Of a stretch of DNA of 39,857 nt, positions 339 through 39,813 are shown piece by piece (positions within the stretch are counted from its first letter, which is position 1; every line of letters starts with the position of its first letter). The translations under genes were made by a program, and so were the position numbers. The notes under the pieces were generated by a model. It made no database searches. It was not told where the DNA came from and saw nothing but the letters and a program-made list of their open reading frames with translations. Source of the stretch: an uncultured Lachnospiraceae bacterium (lineage in GTDB: Bacteria; Bacillota; Clostridia; Lachnospirales; Lachnospiraceae); the NCBI GenBank assembly GCA_947629525.1, contig CANREB010000022.1:1-39857 (forward strand). The letters are read 5' to 3'.

Positions 339-374
339 AATATTACCTCCTTGTTTTCCGCTTTACGGATTGCC

Positions 375-395
375 GCGGGAATTTCCGTTTCCCGC
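375..395 (-). promoter_or_regulatory. Candidate CsrA-binding hairpin in the flagellin leader
   Basis: On the minus strand this forms a perfect 7-bp stem (GCGGGAA/TTCCCGC) with the loop ACGGAAA, so a GGA is displayed in the loop, which is the geometry preferred by CsrA/RsmA proteins. It lies about 25-45 nt upstream of the flagellin Shine-Dalgarno, which itself contains GGA (348-350). CsrA bound to both sites could block ribosome entry. The hairpin is seen directly; binding is inferred. Confidence 0.55.
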
Positions 396-453
396 CGTTT
401 GTTAATAGTTTCTTTTCAATATTCAATTGTCTATAATAATCCGAATACATTCC

Positions 454-463
454 GCCATCCGGC
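454..463 (-). promoter_or_regulatory. Second small GGA-loop hairpin in the csrA-flagellin gap
   Basis: The minus strand reads GCC-GGAT-GGC, a minimal 3-bp stem presenting GGAT in the loop, flanked by further GGA triplets at 440-442, 451-453 and 487-489. It could be an upstream CsrA contact that cooperates with the hairpin at 375-395 and the Shine-Dalgarno. The short stem makes this weaker evidence than the 7-bp hairpin. Confidence 0.35.
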
Positions 464-497
464 GCGCCTCTTAGGACGGAACTTCATCCGGCTATTA

Positions 498-701
498 TCA
501 TTGCCGATCCTGCGTGCCTGCCGCTGCCGCATTTCTGCGTTTGACTGCCCGCTTCCGTATAGCCCTTCCCCTTGCTATGTTCACATCCTTGGGGGCATCT
601 ATCATTATTCTCAACTGATTATTATTACCTCCGAGAAAAGTGATCTTTATATTTTTTCCTATCATCAGGTATTCTTCCTTTGGCACTGTAAGCATCAGCA
701 T
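498..701 (-). CDS. csrA: CsrA/RsmA-family translational regulator, divergent
   Basis: CsrA is a homodimeric RNA-binding protein that represses translation by covering GGA motifs, and in Firmicutes it controls flagellin. The 67-residue product aligns along the whole family: the MLMLT start, LMIG at 12-15, NQLRIMIDAPKDV at 28-40 and Arg44. Differences from the norm are clear. Arg6, one of the main RNA-contacting residues, is Val; position 7 is Pro; His43 is Ala. The C-terminus is a long, strongly basic tail rich in Arg and Lys. The start is preceded by AAGGGGG six bases upstream. The gene sits immediately upstream of flagellin, as in many Gram-positive flagellar loci, but no fliW is present in the window. 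Its upstream region runs directly into the invertible segment, so its transcription probably depends on that segment's orientation. Confidence 0.88.
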   Translation of the reverse strand: MLMLTVPKEEYLMIGKNIKITFLGGNNNQLRIMIDAPKDVNIARGRAIRKRAVKRRNAAAAGTQDRQ

Positions 702-763: not shown

Positions 764-796
764 AATGCAACCGTCTTTATATTGTGTTGCATTTTT
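764..796 (+). repeat. Left recombination site of the invertible segment
   Basis: The core reads AATGCAACCGT - CTTTATAT - TGTGTTGCATT: two 11-bp imperfectly inverted arms around an 8-bp asymmetric spacer at 775-782, the layout of tyrosine-recombinase sites such as lox and FRT. It matches the site at 1645-1677 in inverted orientation at 30 of 33 positions; the 22 bases on the inner side (775-796) are identical. The three mismatches (772-774) lie in the outer arm. It lies 63 bp upstream of the csrA start. Confidence 0.9.
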
Positions 797-815
797 AAAT
801 CACTCACAAAAAGAG

Positions 816-844
816 TTAAAAATGTACTATCATAAATATATAAG
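816..844 (+). promoter_or_regulatory. Weak candidate sigma-A promoter for the recombinase
   Basis: TTAAAA at 816-821 and TATAAG at 839-844 are separated by 17 bp, in very A/T-rich DNA. The match to TTGACA is poor, so this may be a low-level promoter or not the true one. It lies inside the invertible segment and would travel with the gene. Confidence 0.3.
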
Positions 845-873
845 AAAGGTCGGGGTTGAAAGGAAGCGCCCCT

Positions 874-1008
874 ATGGGTAAAAATAATGGGATTAGTCAC
901 ACCTATCAAAAGCAAAAAAGAAATAAAACAATTGAAAAAGTATTTTCTGAAAAGCGGCAAGATACGCAACTATACACTCTTCGTATTCGGGATAAATACC
1001 GCGCTTAG
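874..1008 (+). other. Short ORF overlapping the recombinase start, out of frame
   Basis: The only good Shine-Dalgarno near the recombinase (AGGAAG, 861-866) is 7 nt upstream of an ATG at 874 in a different frame. That frame runs 44 codons and stops at 1006-1008, overlapping the first 40 recombinase codons. It may be chance, or it may act as a decoy or coupling ORF that keeps recombinase levels low. The peptide matches nothing I recognise. Confidence 0.2.
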
Positions 1009-1477
1009 AATAAGTGATATTTTATCTCTCAAGTGGAACGACGTATATGATTTTGAAACAGATACGGTTAAAACTCACGTTACATTGACAGAGCAGAAAA
1101 CACGTAAGATAAACAGCGTCCATATTAATTCACATGTCAAAAAGGCAATTTTAAAGCTTCTAAGGCACAATTACAGCAAAAATATGAAAGTAACAGCGGC
1201 AGATTATATCTTTACAAGCCAGAAAAGCCGCAGCAGCCACCTCAGCCGCGCACAGGCTTTCAGGATAATACGCGCTGCCGCGGAACATCTGCATATAAAT
1301 GGAAATATAGGATGCCATTCCATGCGCAAAACATTTGGATATTTTGCATCTAAAAGCCGGATTTCCCCAAACCTGATTATGTCGATTTATAATCATTCCA
1401 CCTATTCCGTAACACGTCATTACCTTGGCATAGACCAAGACGAACGGGATTTCGTTTTTAAAGCAATAACTCTTTAA
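887..1477 (+). CDS. Small tyrosine recombinase (catalytic domain only), probable DNA invertase
   Basis: This protein catalyses site-specific strand exchange through a covalent 3'-phosphotyrosine intermediate. The 196 residues comprise only the catalytic domain and lack the N-terminal SAM-like core-binding domain of XerC/D. All catalytic residues are visible: Arg41 in NTALRISD, Lys71 in EQKT, His144 and Arg147 in CHSMRKT, His170 in YNHST, and Tyr179 in TRHYLGI. It belongs to a short integrase family common in Firmicutes that starts like MxxVxPIK. The start at 887 fits that family, although it has no good Shine-Dalgarno of its own. The gene is enclosed by two inverted lox-like sites with no other mobile-element genes, which argues for a dedicated invertase rather than a phage or ICE integrase. 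A weak hairpin with a T-run follows at 1505-1526. Confidence 0.93.
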   Translation: MGLVTPIKSKKEIKQLKKYFLKSGKIRNYTLFVFGINTALRISDILSLKWNDVYDFETDTVKTHVTLTEQKTRKINSVHINSHVKKAILKLLRHNYSKNMKVTAADYIFTSQKSRSSHLSRAQAFRIIRAAAEHLHINGNIGCHSMRKTFGYFASKSRISPNLIMSIYNHSTYSVTRHYLGIDQDERDFVFKAITL

Positions 1478-1504
1478 AATCCAAAAACACCAACCACAGT
1501 TCTT

Positions 1505-1526
1505 AGGGGATATTCTGCCCTTTTTT
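1505..1526 (+). terminator. Weak candidate terminator after the recombinase
   Basis: A 4-bp stem (AGGG/CCCT) with a 9-nt loop is followed by six T residues. The short stem suggests inefficient termination. If it works, it separates recombinase transcription from the sigma-28 promoter 65 bp further on. Confidence 0.3.
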
Positions 1527-1590
1527 CGTTACAGACATCAAATTTTAATCGGGAAATTTTCAAAAAAGCGAAAAATTTTTAAAACAACTA

Positions 1591-1617
1591 TAAAGAATTA
1601 AAGATACTGACCGATAT
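1591..1617 (+). promoter_or_regulatory. Sigma-28 (SigD/FliA) class promoter inside the invertible segment
   Basis: TAAA at 1591-1594, exactly 15 bp, then ACCGATAT at 1610-1617. The sigma-28 consensus is TAAA-N15-GCCGATAT, so 11 of 12 conserved positions match with ideal spacing. A/T tracts upstream (1558-1585) could serve as an UP element. The predicted transcript starts near 1624. As drawn, it faces the right-hand recombination site and the terminator at 1710-1756, with no gene downstream in its orientation. After inversion it would face csrA and flagellin, the expected sigma-28 targets. Confidence 0.8.
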
Positions 1618-1644
1618 ATAAAGTGTAAGAATAAAAAACAATGA

Positions 1645-1677
1645 AAAAATGCAACACAATATAAAGTGTGTTGCATT
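1645..1677 (-). repeat. Right recombination site of the invertible segment
   Basis: The core at 1648-1677 is a perfect 11-bp inverted repeat (AATGCAACACA and TGTGTTGCATT) around the 8-bp spacer ATATAAAG at 1659-1666. The spacer is the exact reverse complement of the left site's spacer, so the two sites are in inverted orientation and recombination would flip the DNA between them. Its flanking bases match the left site for 22 contiguous positions on the inner side. Confidence 0.9.
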
Positions 1678-1769: not shown

Positions 1770-3254
1770 TTATTTGAACGGATTTTCCGTAGGATAAGGC
1801 AGCGACTTAGGCTGATTGTAGTTGAGATCCTCAATGGGAACTCCTATGTACTTAAATACCTCAAACAAAGCCTTTCCAAAGTGACCGAAAGCAACTGCGC
1901 CGTGATGAGGGTAGTTCTTCTCGATCAATACGTGACGGTAAAACCTCTCCATCTCAGGTATTGCGAATACGCCGATGCCGCCAAAAGACTTAGTCGCAAC
2001 GGGAAGTATCTCGCCCTGTGCGATGTATGCGCGCAGTTTGCAGTCCGCTGTAGACTGTAAACGGTAGAAAGTAATATCTCCCGGAATGATATCGCCCTCA
2101 AGAGTACCCTGCGTAACTTCTTCGGGAAGCGTTCTTGCCATTATCATCTGATATTTCATGCTGCATGACGAAAGTTTCTTTGTAGTGGTATTTCCGCAGT
2201 GGAAGCCCATAAATGTGTCATTCACCGTGTAATTGTATTTGCCCTTGATAGACTCATTATACATATCGGCAGGAACCGTGTTATTGATATCAAGCAGCGT
2301 GACAGCGTCGTTGCTCACGCATGTACCGATGAACTCGCTGAGACATCCGTAGATATCGACCTCGCAGGAAACAGGGATGCCCATACCTGTAAGACGGCTG
2401 TTGACATAGCAGGGAACAAATCCGAACTGCGTCTGGAATGCGGGCCAGCACTTGCCTGCGATTGCAACGTATTTGCGATATCCCTTATGATCCTCGATCC
2501 AGTCAAGCAGAGTAAGTTCATACTGTGCAAGCTTAGGAAGTATTTCGGGTTTCTGATTGCCTGCGCCAAGTTCTGCTTCCATCTCTTTAACTTTTGCGGG
2601 TATCCGCTCATCGCCTGCATGCTTATTAAATGCCTCAAACAGGTCAAGTTCAGAGTTCTCCTCGATCTCAACTCCAAGATTATAAAGCTGCTTTATAGGT
2701 GCGTTGCATGCAAGGAAATTGAGAGGTCTGGGACCGAATGAAATGATCTTCAAATCAGAAAGACCTACGATAGCCCTTGCGATAGGAATAAACTCATTGA
2801 TCATATCAGCGCACTCTTCGGCAGTACCGACAGGATATTCGGGAATGTATGCCTTTACGCCTCTAAGCTTTAAGTTATAGCTTGCATTGAGCATACCGCA
2901 GTATGCGTCGCCGCGTCCGCCGACAAGGTCATTCTGTGTTTCCTCCGCTGCCGCGATAAACATTGCGGGACCGTCAAAATGCTTTGCAAGCAGTGTCTCG
3001 GAAATTTCAGGACCGAAATTGCCAAGATATACGCAGAGCGCGTTGCATCCGGCTTTCTTAATGTCCTCAAGCGCCTGAACCATATGTATTTCGCTCTCTA
3101 CTATGCAGACAGGACATTCATAGATGCCTTCAGCACCGTATTTGTCAGTGTACGCCTTGATGAGCGCCTTTCTCCTGTTTACTGACAGGCTTTCAGGGAA
3201 ACAGTCACGGCTCACTGCTACGATGCCGACCTTTACCTGTGGTAAATTGTTCAT
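1770..3254 (-). CDS. L-fucose/L-arabinose isomerase-fold family protein
   Basis: This is a sugar isomerase of the FucI/AraA fold, expected to be a cytoplasmic Mn-dependent ketol isomerase acting on a pentose, hexose or deoxyhexose. The 494 residues lack the full length of classical FucI (about 590) but match the shorter 'L-fucose isomerase-related' group. Candidate metal ligands are in the segments PVSCEVDIYG (Glu), TLLDIN (Asp) and MGFHCGN (His), in the family order. ATG at 3254 has an AGGAGG ribosome-binding site. The gene stands alone with its own sigma-A promoter (3332-3360) and terminator. No kinase, aldolase or sugar transporter is adjacent, so the substrate cannot be deduced from context. 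The family assignment is firm; the substrate is unknown. Confidence 0.82.
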   Translation of the reverse strand: MNNLPQVKVGIVAVSRDCFPESLSVNRRKALIKAYTDKYGAEGIYECPVCIVESEIHMVQALEDIKKAGCNALCVYLGNFGPEISETLLAKHFDGPAMFIAAAEETQNDLVGGRGDAYCGMLNASYNLKLRGVKAYIPEYPVGTAEECADMINEFIPIARAIVGLSDLKIISFGPRPLNFLACNAPIKQLYNLGVEIEENSELDLFEAFNKHAGDERIPAKVKEMEAELGAGNQKPEILPKLAQYELTLLDWIEDHKGYRKYVAIAGKCWPAFQTQFGFVPCYVNSRLTGMGIPVSCEVDIYGCLSEFIGTCVSNDAVTLLDINNTVPADMYNESIKGKYNYTVNDTFMGFHCGNTTTKKLSSCSMKYQMIMARTLPEEVTQGTLEGDIIPGDITFYRLQSTADCKLRAYIAQGEILPVATKSFGGIGVFAIPEMERFYRHVLIEKNYPHHGAVAFGHFGKALFEVFKYIGVPIEDLNYNQPKSLPYPTENPFK

Positions 3255-3378: not shown

Positions 3379-4737
3379 TCAAAGCACTTTGCGCGCCACA
3401 TACGCAAATGTCAATGCATGGATAAACATTGTTATAGCCCATGTTATCGGATACGAAATATATACTGTCGTAAGGCTGTGATACTGCGGAATGTTAAAGA
3501 CTGTCGCAATCCACAAAAGACGCAGACCACATGCTCCTATAAGCGATACTACCATCGGCACTACCGAATATCCGAGCCCCCTCATCACACCTACGAACAC
3601 ATCCATCATACCGCAGAGCGCATATATCGTGCATATTATCCTCATACGCAGAAGCCCTGCCGCTATGACCTCGGGATTAGCCGAATATATCCCAAGAAGC
3701 GTACTTCCAAAATGTACCGCAAGATTGCCGAGCAGAAGTCCCACTGTCATAGCGTAGATTTCGCCCGCTATCAGTATTTTGTATACACGCTTGTACTCAT
3801 GCGCTCCGTAGTTCTGGCTTGTAAAAGAAATCGCCGCCTGATAGAACGCGTTCATCCCCATATATACGAAACCTTCAATATTGGCTGCCGCCGAGTTGCC
3901 CGCCACCGATATCGCGCCGAAAGAGTTTACCGCCGACTGTATGACGACGTTTGATAACGAGAACACCACGCCCTGAAATCCTGCGGGCAGACCGATCTGC
4001 ACTATCTTCAGGAATTTTTCGCGCGTGATGGCAAGCGATTTCAAATCAAGATGTATGCCGCCCTGTTCTTTTATAAGGCAGCGGACTACCAAAAGCGCCG
4101 AAACTGTCTGTGAGATAGCCGTCGCCGCCGCGACGCCCGCAACTCCCCAGTGGCATATGATAACAAAAAACAGATTTAAGACGACATTTATGATACCCGC
4201 GCCAAGCAAAAAATAGAGCGGGCGTTTTGTGTCACCGACTGCCCTCAAAATGGCGCTTCCGAAGTTATATACCATCGTTGAGGTCATTCCGAGGAAATAT
4301 ATTCTCAGATAAAGGACTGCAAGGTCAAGCACTTCTTTTGGCGCCTGCATAAGTTCCAAAAGCACCCGCGCGGACGCGATGCCTATTACCGTAAGTATGA
4401 TACCGCTGTAAATACTTAGAAGCATCGACGTGTGTACGGTCTCCTTCAGATCCGAGTCACGCTTTGCACCGTAATACTGTGCCGTCAGTACATTTGTACC
4501 GATGGAAAGTCCTATGAACAAGTTAGTGATAAGATTGATGAGCGAACCGTTTGAACCTACCGCCGCAAGCGCGTTGTCGCCCGCGAACCGCCCCACCACG
4601 ACAATATCAGCCGCGTTGAACAAAAGCTGTAAAATGCTTGAAAACATCAGCGGTATCGCAAATATAAGCATTTTCTTAAAAACAGAACCGCTGCACATAT
4701 CGATCTCGTATTTCTTTTTTTCCGTTTGCATATTCAT
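3379..4737 (-). CDS. MATE family multidrug/metabolite efflux transporter (second copy)
   Basis: This is an integral membrane antiporter predicted to expel organic cations, drugs or metabolites using an ion gradient. The 452 residues show about twelve hydrophobic segments in two related halves. The first helix segment (KMLIFAIPLMFSSILQLLF) is followed by NAADIVVVGRFAGDNALAAVG, a typical MATE signature. Its ATG overlaps the stop of the preceding MATE gene as TAATG, indicating translational coupling. It is the last gene of a four-gene overlapping operon. Two tandem, divergent MATE genes may work independently, since MATE proteins are normally single-chain; heterodimer action would be speculative. 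The substrate is unknown. Confidence 0.9.
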   Translation of the reverse strand: MNMQTEKKKYEIDMCSGSVFKKMLIFAIPLMFSSILQLLFNAADIVVVGRFAGDNALAAVGSNGSLINLITNLFIGLSIGTNVLTAQYYGAKRDSDLKETVHTSMLLSIYSGIILTVIGIASARVLLELMQAPKEVLDLAVLYLRIYFLGMTSTMVYNFGSAILRAVGDTKRPLYFLLGAGIINVVLNLFFVIICHWGVAGVAAATAISQTVSALLVVRCLIKEQGGIHLDLKSLAITREKFLKIVQIGLPAGFQGVVFSLSNVVIQSAVNSFGAISVAGNSAAANIEGFVYMGMNAFYQAAISFTSQNYGAHEYKRVYKILIAGEIYAMTVGLLLGNLAVHFGSTLLGIYSANPEVIAAGLLRMRIICTIYALCGMMDVFVGVMRGLGYSVVPMVVSLIGACGLRLLWIATVFNIPQYHSLTTVYISYPITWAITMFIHALTFAYVARKVL

Positions 4738-6107
4738 TACGCCTCTTTCTTTTTATTAATGCCTTTAATAACAGGATTTTTTATCGTCATCACAATAAGC
4801 GGTATCACCATCAGACACCATATGACCGGTTCCGTCCATATGATGCCCCAATATCCGAATATCCGCACAAACACAAAAGTAAATACCAATTTTCCCACAA
4901 GTTCGATAAAGCTTGAAACTATCGGGGTACTGTAATCGCCAAATCCTTGCATTGAATTTCTCAACACCACGATAAAAACACATACTATGAGAAACGACAT
5001 ATCATATTCAAGGTAAGTCGTACCCCAGTAAAGCACTTCTTCACTGTCCGTACTTGCGATAAAACCGATAAGATATTCCGAAACCGTATGCGCAAGCACG
5101 AATATGACCCCTGCCCAGCATATACCAAGCATAAGCGCCGATTTTATCCCGCGGCGTATTCGGTCATACTTTCCCGCGCCGTAATTCTGCCCGCAGTAAG
5201 TCGCCATTGAAGAACCGATAACGCTGACCGGAAGATTCCATATCTCAAATACCTTGCGCGCCGCCGTATGTGCGACGATTATGGAAGTCCCGAGCTGATT
5301 TATTCCGCTTTGCAGCACAAGCGTCCCGAAATTCACAAGGCTTGACATAAGTCCCATCGAAAGTCCGCTTTGGTACATTGAAAAAATCTGCTTCTTTGAC
5401 ATCTTAAAATCCGATTTTGAAATATGAAGTATCGGAAAATTTCTATATATATGTATAAGGCAGAGCAAGACCGACAAAAACTGCGACACAACTGTCGCTA
5501 TCGCAGCCCCTTTTACGCCAAGTCCGAAATTTAATATAAATATATAGTCAAGCGCCACATTCATAAATGATGCCGCTATCAAAAATATCAGCGGTGTCAC
5601 GGAATCCCCGATCGCCCTCAATGTGTTGGCGCAAAGGTTGTACGCAGTCGTGATGAACATTCCCCATATCAGTATGCTTATATATTCACGCGACATTTCC
5701 GCCTGATCCGCGCCCACATGCAAAAGCGTCAGGACCGGACGCAGAAACAGCGATACAAGCATGATTATTACTGCTGCCGTGGCAAAACCAAGGACAACGG
5801 CGCCCGCCACATTTTTCTTTAAGCCTTTTTCATCACCGCTCCCATAAAAACGTGATGTTATCACACTAAATCCGAGACTTAACCCGTTAAAAAATCCCGT
5901 CAGCAGTGTATGCAGCACTGACACTGACCCTACCGACGCAAGCGCATCCTCTCCCAGTATGCTCCCTACTATCTTTGTGTCCACAAGGCTGTACATGATT
6001 TGAAAAAGATTGCCTAAAAATACGGGAACGGCAAACAGCAGTATAAGCTTTATCGGTCTGCCCTCGGTAAGATTGAGCGCCGTCCTTGAATTTCTTTTTG
6101 TTTCCAT
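4737..6107 (-). CDS. MATE family multidrug/metabolite efflux transporter (first copy)
   Basis: This membrane transporter of the MATE/DinF group has 456 residues from the chosen start METKRNSRTALN. Signature sequences include LVDTKIVGSILGEDALASVG near the first helices and about twelve hydrophobic stretches. An upstream in-frame ATG at 6203 would lie inside the preceding methyltransferase gene. The start at 6107 is preferred because it forms a TAATG overlap with that gene's stop and begins just before the conserved first helix. The copies at 3379-4737 and here share family features but differ throughout, so they are not a recent duplication. The substrate is not predictable from sequence. Confidence 0.88.
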   Translation of the reverse strand: METKRNSRTALNLTEGRPIKLILLFAVPVFLGNLFQIMYSLVDTKIVGSILGEDALASVGSVSVLHTLLTGFFNGLSLGFSVITSRFYGSGDEKGLKKNVAGAVVLGFATAAVIIMLVSLFLRPVLTLLHVGADQAEMSREYISILIWGMFITTAYNLCANTLRAIGDSVTPLIFLIAASFMNVALDYIFILNFGLGVKGAAIATVVSQFLSVLLCLIHIYRNFPILHISKSDFKMSKKQIFSMYQSGLSMGLMSSLVNFGTLVLQSGINQLGTSIIVAHTAARKVFEIWNLPVSVIGSSMATYCGQNYGAGKYDRIRRGIKSALMLGICWAGVIFVLAHTVSEYLIGFIASTDSEEVLYWGTTYLEYDMSFLIVCVFIVVLRNSMQGFGDYSTPIVSSFIELVGKLVFTFVFVRIFGYWGIIWTEPVIWCLMVIPLIVMTIKNPVIKGINKKKEA

Positions 6108-38973: not shown

Positions 38974-39813
38974 TTAGCCAAGTAATGAGAGTACACCCTG
39001 ATTTGACTGGTTAGCCTGCGCAAGCATTGACTGACCTGCCTGTGAAAGGATGTTGCTGTTAGAGTACTTAACCATCTCTGAAGCCATGTCTGTATCACGG
39101 ATCGCAGACTCTGCTGATGTTGTATTCTCTACGATGTTATCAAGGTTGTTGATCGTATGCTCTAAGCGGTTCTGTACTGCACCGAGTGCTGAACGCTGGG
39201 TTGATACGATCTTGATTGCCTGTGAGATAACAGAGATTGCATCTGTAGCCCTTGTGCCGTCTTCACCATTAACTTTCAAGCCGTTTACACCAAGCCCCTT
39301 AGCTGTAAGAGCTTCGATATTAACAGAAATCTTGTTGTTTGCTGTACCATCTGCACCTACATGGAACTTAAGATTAAGTGCTGCTGTCTTTTCCTGTGCT
39401 GCGACAACATCAGCCGTGTTAAGTTCAATCTCATGCCCAAGTGCATCATATACTCTGTTTGCATCAGCTCGCGGTGTTGCTGTTGTTCCGTTTCCTGTAA
39501 AATAATCTCCCAAAGCGTTAGCAGCTATTGCGTTTCCATCTTTGTCATAATATGAGAAAATTTCATTTGAGCTAATAGCCGCTGTTACTGTTGTAGCTGT
39601 AATTATCGCGCTATTACCTGCTGTCAAACCACTAGCTGCAACGCCTGTAACATTAGCAACTGTCTTACCTTCAGAATTAACAATTTTAAAGTTAGTACCA
39701 TCTGCCTGAACCTGATAATTACTCTTTGCATCGCTTCCATTCAACTCAACAGAAAGTTTTAAATTACCCGCTACTGTCGTTGGGACTATCCCAAAGTTTG
39801 TGTAAACCTTCAA
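38974..39813 (-). pseudogene. Flagellin lacking its N-terminal half within the window (5'-truncated or interrupted)
   Basis: The frame encodes the flagellin central variable domain and an intact C-terminal D1/D0 region (ISQAIKIVSTQRSALGAVQN, NILSQAGQSMLAQANQSNQG, ending VLSLLG). The conserved N-terminal D0/D1 region that every flagellin needs is absent. Reading upstream, the frame stays open only to an in-frame TAA at 39855-39853, with a possible TTG at 39813 that has no ribosome site. Instead, the opposite strand shows GGAGG (39842-39846) and an ATG at 39855-39857. This suggests an inserted element or a rearrangement junction at about 39807-39855. A frameshift with the 5' half just beyond the edge is also possible. 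Confidence 0.75.

Follow-up and report, generated by a model that had tools for sequence, protein, structure and literature searches.

What kind of element lies between the csrA-like gene at the left end of this contig and the next gene to the right? The contig, 39,857 nt in length and called the window here, comes from an uncultured Lachnospiraceae bacterium, and a first-pass annotation had proposed that positions 764-1677 are an invertible switch carrying its own tyrosine recombinase. The evidence given below makes it highly probable that 764-1677 is a self-contained phase-variation switch whose recombinase would flip the segment so that a predicted promoter faces either csrA and flagellin (ON) or away from them (OFF).

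Layout of the segment and its recombinase

From the left, the window carries the 5' part of a flagellin gene, cut by the contig edge (1-338, minus strand; PF00669 match at G000:C22:3-332, tblastn match at 3-338); the csrA-flagellin intergenic leader with the Shine-Dalgarno sequence ACAAGGAGGT (339-497, minus strand); a csrA-like gene, the first of the switched operon (498-701, minus strand); the csrA-proximal recombination site (764-796, plus strand); the recombinase gene (887-1477, plus strand); a sigma28-type promoter match (1591-1617, plus strand); the distal site, an inverted copy of the first (1645-1677, minus strand), with an outward T-run to 1682; and a convergent gene for a fucose/sulfoquinovose isomerase-like protein (1770-3254, minus strand), which is outside the switch. 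An imperfect hairpin at 1712-1756, seen as an inverted repeat between the switch and this convergent gene, is a possible terminator. The segment of 914 bp is thus directly upstream of csrA and of the flagellin start at position 338, as the first-pass annotation had it. A second flagellin, represented by its C-terminal part, occupies window positions 38974-39813 (minus strand) and runs off the right contig end, so that flagellin genes bound the contig at both ends; probably the assembly broke at repeated flagellins.

The inverted, near-identical repeats were also placed correctly at the outset. They agree at 30 of 33 positions, while the best 33-mer match in 120 shuffles of both flanks in 2-base blocks was 24 positions (mean 19.8). 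In each site, two inverted arms flank an asymmetric core of 8 bp, CTTTATAT, which is the same in both copies, and the proximal and distal sites differ at three arm positions. Since the cores are identical, asymmetric and in inverted relative orientation, the sites are arranged for inversion, not for deletion. Between them lies the promoter, recognized by its match to the consensus.

The recombinase is a 196-aa protein whose sole Pfam match at the E-value threshold of 0.001 is Phage_integrase (PF00589, E 2.3e-23), which bears out its description as a lone catalytic domain of a tyrosine recombinase. R41, K71, K74, H144, R147, H170 and Y179 are invariant in all 38 aligned recombinase copies, so that Tyr179, singled out in the first-pass annotation, is strictly conserved. 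We take the catalytic residues to be among these invariant positions and the tyrosine recombinase motif to be R-K-HxxR-H-Y; the window protein has these residues together with the PF00589 match. Its family is a large one, with 639 proteins at E 0.001. Relatives also occur in phage records (153) and plasmid records (1859), in every case below 60% identity. A comparison with solved structures gave no match at E 0.001.

A multi-copy family with matched cores

The same genome has two more recombinases of this kind, at 53% and 52% identity, and two further weak matches (E 1.5e-4 and 7.4e-4). The pattern TGCAAC-N12-18-GTTGCA, with no mismatches allowed, occurs at six sites in the 3.08 Mb genome, and these form three inverted pairs around the three recombinases; the reversed pattern, used as a control, gave no sites in the same 3.08 Mb. 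Three of the four csrA genes of this genome are the first gene after a switch (contigs C22, C32 and C62). On C32, csrA is followed by three flagellins in a row; C62 stops just past csrA, and a flagellin behind it would lie off the contig. The fourth csrA, on C58, is found with flgK-, flgL- and fliW-type genes (flgK and flgL named by eye) and with a flagellin that has a fixed sigma28-type promoter, with TAAG instead of TAAA. The switched cassettes would operate beside this flagellin of the fliW-csrA locus, with its fixed sigma28-type promoter.

To place the locus among its relatives, we used the 38 strongest recombinase copies of the same genus, from 19 genomes (E <=6.7e-40). An outward sigma28 match stands beside the recombinase in 35 of the 38, csrA is no more than 700 bp away in 34 (it was not found for the other 4), and a site pair was called in 32. 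These comparative data support the proposal of a cis-encoded tyrosine-recombinase switch over csrA and flagellin, and they also enlarge it: the single switch of the first-pass annotation is one of a multi-copy family with mostly locus-specific cores. Two genomes, G028 and G020, hold seven and six copies, respectively. Among the copies for which no pair was called, the contig of L107 starts inside the recombinase, L099 has an interrupted distal site, and L126 has a degenerate pair; in L108, L111 and L112, the repeat scan of the locus found no site pair.

Several copies have peculiarities of their own. In L099 (G017:C20, 5590-5671), the distal site is cut, near the contig end, by unrelated sequence that opens with a short inverted repeat, possibly an insertion. 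L111 (G012, 4366-5350) keeps the recombinase and the promoter match, csrA was not found there, and flagellin C-terminal sequence adjoins the recombinase; this is apparently a broken copy. At L117 (G003, 3539-4519), two csrA-like genes stand in tandem ahead of flagellin, and in L102 (G028:C9:117000-136500) three switch-csrA-flagellin units with different cores follow one another in a row, about 4.7 kb apart.

The cores within a pair are closely matched. In the 32 loci with both sites in register, the two cores are identical in 28 and differ at a single base in four. The total is 4 mismatches; when loci were re-paired at random 20,000 times, it never fell below 85. The pairs in this first count had been picked as repeats and the count was hence biased, so it was redone with sites chosen by their arms alone. 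On this choice 33 of the 38 copies qualify, with 27 identical cores, five with one mismatch and one with four; the total of 9 mismatches compares with a minimum of 74 in 20,000 re-pairings, the better orientation being taken, and neither re-pairing figure is a strict probability, as related loci are not independent. The four-mismatch case is L125, whose true site lies beyond the search range and whose core is identical in the repeat-based count.

Between loci the cores diverge. There are 23 distinct cores among the 32, and just one of 38 same-genome locus pairs has a common core in either orientation (L097 and L098 of G020, whose cores are reverse complements); L107, which has only one site on its contig and is outside this pair count, has the core of L095 from the same genome. 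The arms are alike throughout: the outer six positions on each side are near-invariant, partly by construction, and positions 7, 9, 18 and 20, which the search pattern did not use, carry the same base in 57 to 63 of the 64 sites, whereas site positions 12-15 are variable. Cores, in short, are mostly locus-specific and arms are common across loci. Shared arms with matched cores are the pattern one would expect if one enzyme family binds the arms and strand exchange needs matched cores. Each recombinase would then act on its own pair of sites and invert the segment between them, and the different cores would prevent recombination between copies in one chromosome, letting each flagellin cassette switch independently. 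Such matched, mostly locus-specific cores amount to a natural set of inversion sites, which may be orthogonal.

Outside the genus, the module is rarer. Promoter-plus-site patterns occur at 42 places in 21 of 38 genus genomes (two of them, in G025 and G019, look chance-like by eye; the control pattern gave no match in the same 38), and in a family search of 397 genomes, an even draw from a larger group, such junctions were found in 10, two of which are this genome and G035. Leaving out G403, G337 and G423, whose junctions were judged by eye to be chance, we inspected G369, G334, G332, G077 and G121, and in four of the five, csrA and flagellin are present and the site-linked promoter is directed away from csrA; L205, one of these five loci, ends at a contig edge. 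In a set of 57 loci scanned for repeats, csrA and flagellin (one of which, L033, holds two copies), only L006, which is the L096 locus, and L046 have both genes. The recombinase direction is reversed relative to the promoter in L204 and L046. L206 (G332, another genus; 3725-4030) is a version of about 300 bp, with sites and a sigma28 match in front of csrA and flagellin; no recombinase match was found between its sites, so a recombinase encoded at another place would be needed. The promoter faces away from csrA in L206, L204 and L046 alike.

Promoter orientation and competing readings

The flagellar-class promoter proposed in the first-pass annotation is indeed discernible at 1591-1617 as TAAA-N16-CCGATAT. 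The general sigma28 form is given as TAAA-N15-CCGATAT and that of Butyrivibrio as TAAA-N16-17-MCGATAa in passages of PMC3720852, and by this consensus match the window promoter is predicted to be of the sigma28 type. It would be used by FliA, and flagellin expression would follow the orientation of the segment. In this assembly the promoter faces away from csrA, and the window switch is predicted to be OFF. The same is true of 32 of the 33 copies whose state could be called, including all three of this genome; no state was called for L107, L108, L111, L112 and L124, the last of which keeps CCGATATATA, pointing away from csrA, and has no -35 match.

The exception, L106 (G028:C14), supplies the reverse orientation that a switch should show somewhere among related genomes. 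Its promoter faces csrA, and compared with its orthologue L103 in another species (G020:C10), the 985-bp segment is reversed. The csrA-flagellin flanks of the two are 85.7% identical over 2.1 kb and 88.5% over 2.5 kb, and in both, the csrA leader comes directly after the site; what stands before the site is the recombinase leader in L103 and the promoter in L106. The junctions fall at the sites, base by base, and the T-rich distal flank keeps its place in both loci, where the similarity of the distal flanks extends just some 20 bp past the site. Compared with its paralogue L105 in the same genome, the L106 segment is likewise reversed, with about 30 bp of similar distal flank. Both orientations therefore occur next to the same flank, between species only; the only ON copy belongs to another species and does not amount to a flip within one strain. 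At 3623-4768 of L106, with 121 bp between it and the distal site, there is a 381-aa integrase that by eye looks similar to integrases of conjugative elements.

With 32 of 33 callable copies OFF, flipping could be a rare event, a strongly biased one or one under selection: the excess may reflect biased recombination, selection against flagellin in the gut, or feedback. One caveat is that no match to FlhA was found in this assembly and none to FliA above the cut-off; judged by eye on frame length or neighbouring genes, the better sub-threshold FliA matches resemble sigma factors of the housekeeping or sporulation type. For the gene that adjoins fliA in G028, this assembly offers a match of only 30%. 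FliA is found above the cut-off in 34 of 38 genus genomes, which implies that the flgB-fliA region is either missing from this assembly or lost from this genome. In the passages of PMC3720852 that describe the flgB-fliA motility locus, fliA lies between flhA and flgF, so that one missing stretch could explain both absences. The organism may also have lost its flagella.

These observations lend something to the strongest rival, that the segment is a former switch, now locked, inversion having stopped in this lineage and the csrA-flagellin cassettes remaining as silent reserves. Such a history would accommodate the OFF state of nearly all callable copies, all three here included, the lack of FlhA and of above-threshold FliA in the assembly, and the three arm differences between the window sites; it fits poorly with catalytic residues that are invariant in 38 of 38 copies, with cores that agree within pairs and are mostly different from locus to locus, and with an orthologue that is ON. 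We consider it improbable. That the recombinase and its sites make up a small mobile integrating unit, for which flipping is a by-product and not regulation, is very unlikely: csrA adjoins 34 of 38 copies and an outward sigma28 match 35, and the sites are inverted, not direct, so that excision is not expected, even though relatives of the recombinase (all below 60% identity) are common on plasmids and occur in phages, the genes on the distal side vary, and there are several copies per genome.

For the phase-variation switch, the sites may also matter to transcription. The distal site is a palindrome followed by T's and can, for this reason, double as a terminator. In the OFF state, the transcript would leave via the distal site and end at the site hairpin and T-run; in the ON state, it would pass the csrA-side site, which has no T-run, into csrA and flagellin. 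Over 32 loci, the first eight outward bases contain on average 5.75 T at the promoter end versus 2.25 at the other end, the ends of L106 and L124 having been assigned in reverse or by default. The resemblance of the distal site to an intrinsic terminator, and this difference in T content, speak for the sites being terminators only, with the recombinase acting elsewhere, a scarcely credible reading that leaves unexplained both the matched, mostly locus-specific cores of the two copies and the reversed orthologue joined at the sites. We also considered two-way switching, with the OFF promoter driving the distal gene, and it is not supported: the nearest distal ORF opposes the outward direction at 35 of 44 loci (mechanical calls of ORFs of at least 80 aa; 46 loci examined, 44 with an ORF).

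CsrA, possible feedback and relation to known switches

The csrA product of the window matches PF02599 (E 7.7e-18) and is below the NCBIfam cut-offs for CsrA. Its alignment places it in a divergent subfamily with Val6 and a retained Arg44. Arg6 is found in none of the 34 switch-linked proteins (33 have Val and one Leu) and Arg44 is kept; we assume here the E. coli numbering of the RNA-binding residues Arg6 and Arg44. By their sequences, the switch-linked CsrAs (window 498-701, and the copies at L092-L130 and L189) appear to be a divergent set, and their mode of RNA binding may differ from the usual one. Many copies in the clade nearest to the window have Lys/Arg/Ala-rich tails.

Messages repressed by CsrA typically have a GGA in a hairpin and a second GGA near the Shine-Dalgarno sequence. 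The csrA-flagellin leader Shine-Dalgarno, ACAAGGAGGT, resembles a CsrA-binding consensus, and CAAGGAGG precedes 24 of the 36 flagellin starts examined. Hairpins with GGA in the loop and a stem of at least 4 bp were found in 30 of 37 recombinase leaders (L107 left out), whereas 200 shuffles gave 12.0 on average and never more than 19. The count of 30 is loose, some of the hairpins include the Shine-Dalgarno sequence, and leaders that are related do not represent independent cases. A strict count, again with stems of at least 4 bp, gives 20 of 37, made up of nine AAGGA(A/T) 6-nt loops and eleven AAAGGAAA loops, and in the 6-nt-loop set, stem positions 1-4 alternate between Watson-Crick pair types. 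The 65-nt leader of the window recombinase folds at -7.3 kcal/mol in RNAfold, into a possible CsrA-type hairpin at 852-872 (plus strand), whose 5-bp stem closes an 11-nt loop containing AAAGGA; this stem scored only 3 bp in the count of 30.

The leader hairpins suggest that CsrA may feed back on the recombinase. CsrA made from a cassette in the ON state would bind the GGA hairpin of the recombinase leader and repress translation, and the cassette would be latched ON; the same CsrA would possibly keep other cassettes OFF, and the host would then meet roughly one switched flagellin at any time. This full scheme, which joins orthogonal flagellin switches to CsrA-mediated latching, is tentative and, in our judgement, somewhat doubtful as a whole. 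The hairpins make feedback between CsrA and the recombinase directly testable.

In gut Lachnospiraceae, flagellin is a major antigen and triggers immune responses. If the switches are real, a commensal could hold many flagellin genes and keep most of them silent. Three flagellin genes of Eubacterium and Roseburia are described, in passages of PMC3720852, as having no visible promoter, and switches of this kind would perhaps explain promoterless flagellin genes in assemblies.

Among the known systems, the first-pass annotation had likened the segment to hin/hix of Salmonella, and the likeness holds for the layout and not beyond it. Hin is a serine recombinase, and its gene lies, together with a promoter, inside the invertible segment. 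In both cases the recombinase and the promoter are inside the flipped segment, and the operon that is switched contains flagellin along with another regulatory gene, csrA in the window. The differences are that the enzyme of the window is a tyrosine recombinase, Phage_integrase being its only Pfam match at E 0.001 and no serine recombinase domain appearing, that the promoter is of the sigma28 type and the companion is csrA, and that there are several copies with mostly different cores.

The fimS element of E. coli is also invertible and bears a promoter, with the FimB and FimE genes outside it. It shares with the window segment the promoter-bearing invertible element and a short tyrosine recombinase. 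The fim-type invertase models (NCBIfam PRK09870 and PRK09871, which we take to be FimB and FimE) score the window recombinase weakly, at 27 and 37.2 bits, below their cut-offs of 221 and 222 bits, and fimS differs further in that its enzymes are encoded outside the element and its target is fimbriae, not flagella.

RecV of C. difficile acts in trans, and recV lies outside the flg switch. Passages of PMC7446863, PMC5386303 and PMC5903667 describe the flg switch (Cdi4) as a 154-bp element upstream of the flgB operon that works through Rho, at a step later than transcription initiation, and needs RecV, an enzyme that other switches use as well. The contrast drawn in the first-pass annotation is right. 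On the same sources, the two systems have in common a flagellar switch, a tyrosine recombinase and a clostridial host; the C. difficile switch has no promoter inside, the flgB operon as target and one recombinase for several switches, whereas here a promoter match and the recombinase are inside, the target is a flagellin operon and there is one recombinase per switch.

Surveys of gut invertons (PhaseFinder and similar), as far as their consulted portions go, likewise report invertible elements near recombinases, also in Clostridia, and PMC11892184, in the part seen, links a mostly clostridial inverton group to a tyrosine recombinase group; the words 'flagellin', 'motility' and 'csrA' do not occur in its main text. 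In the titles, abstract openings and passages inspected from the open-licence PMC literature, the present arrangement was not found described. We place it with promoter-inversion phase variation, Hin-like in its layout and Fim-like in the size of its enzyme, and unlike the RecV system in having both promoter and recombinase inside the segment.
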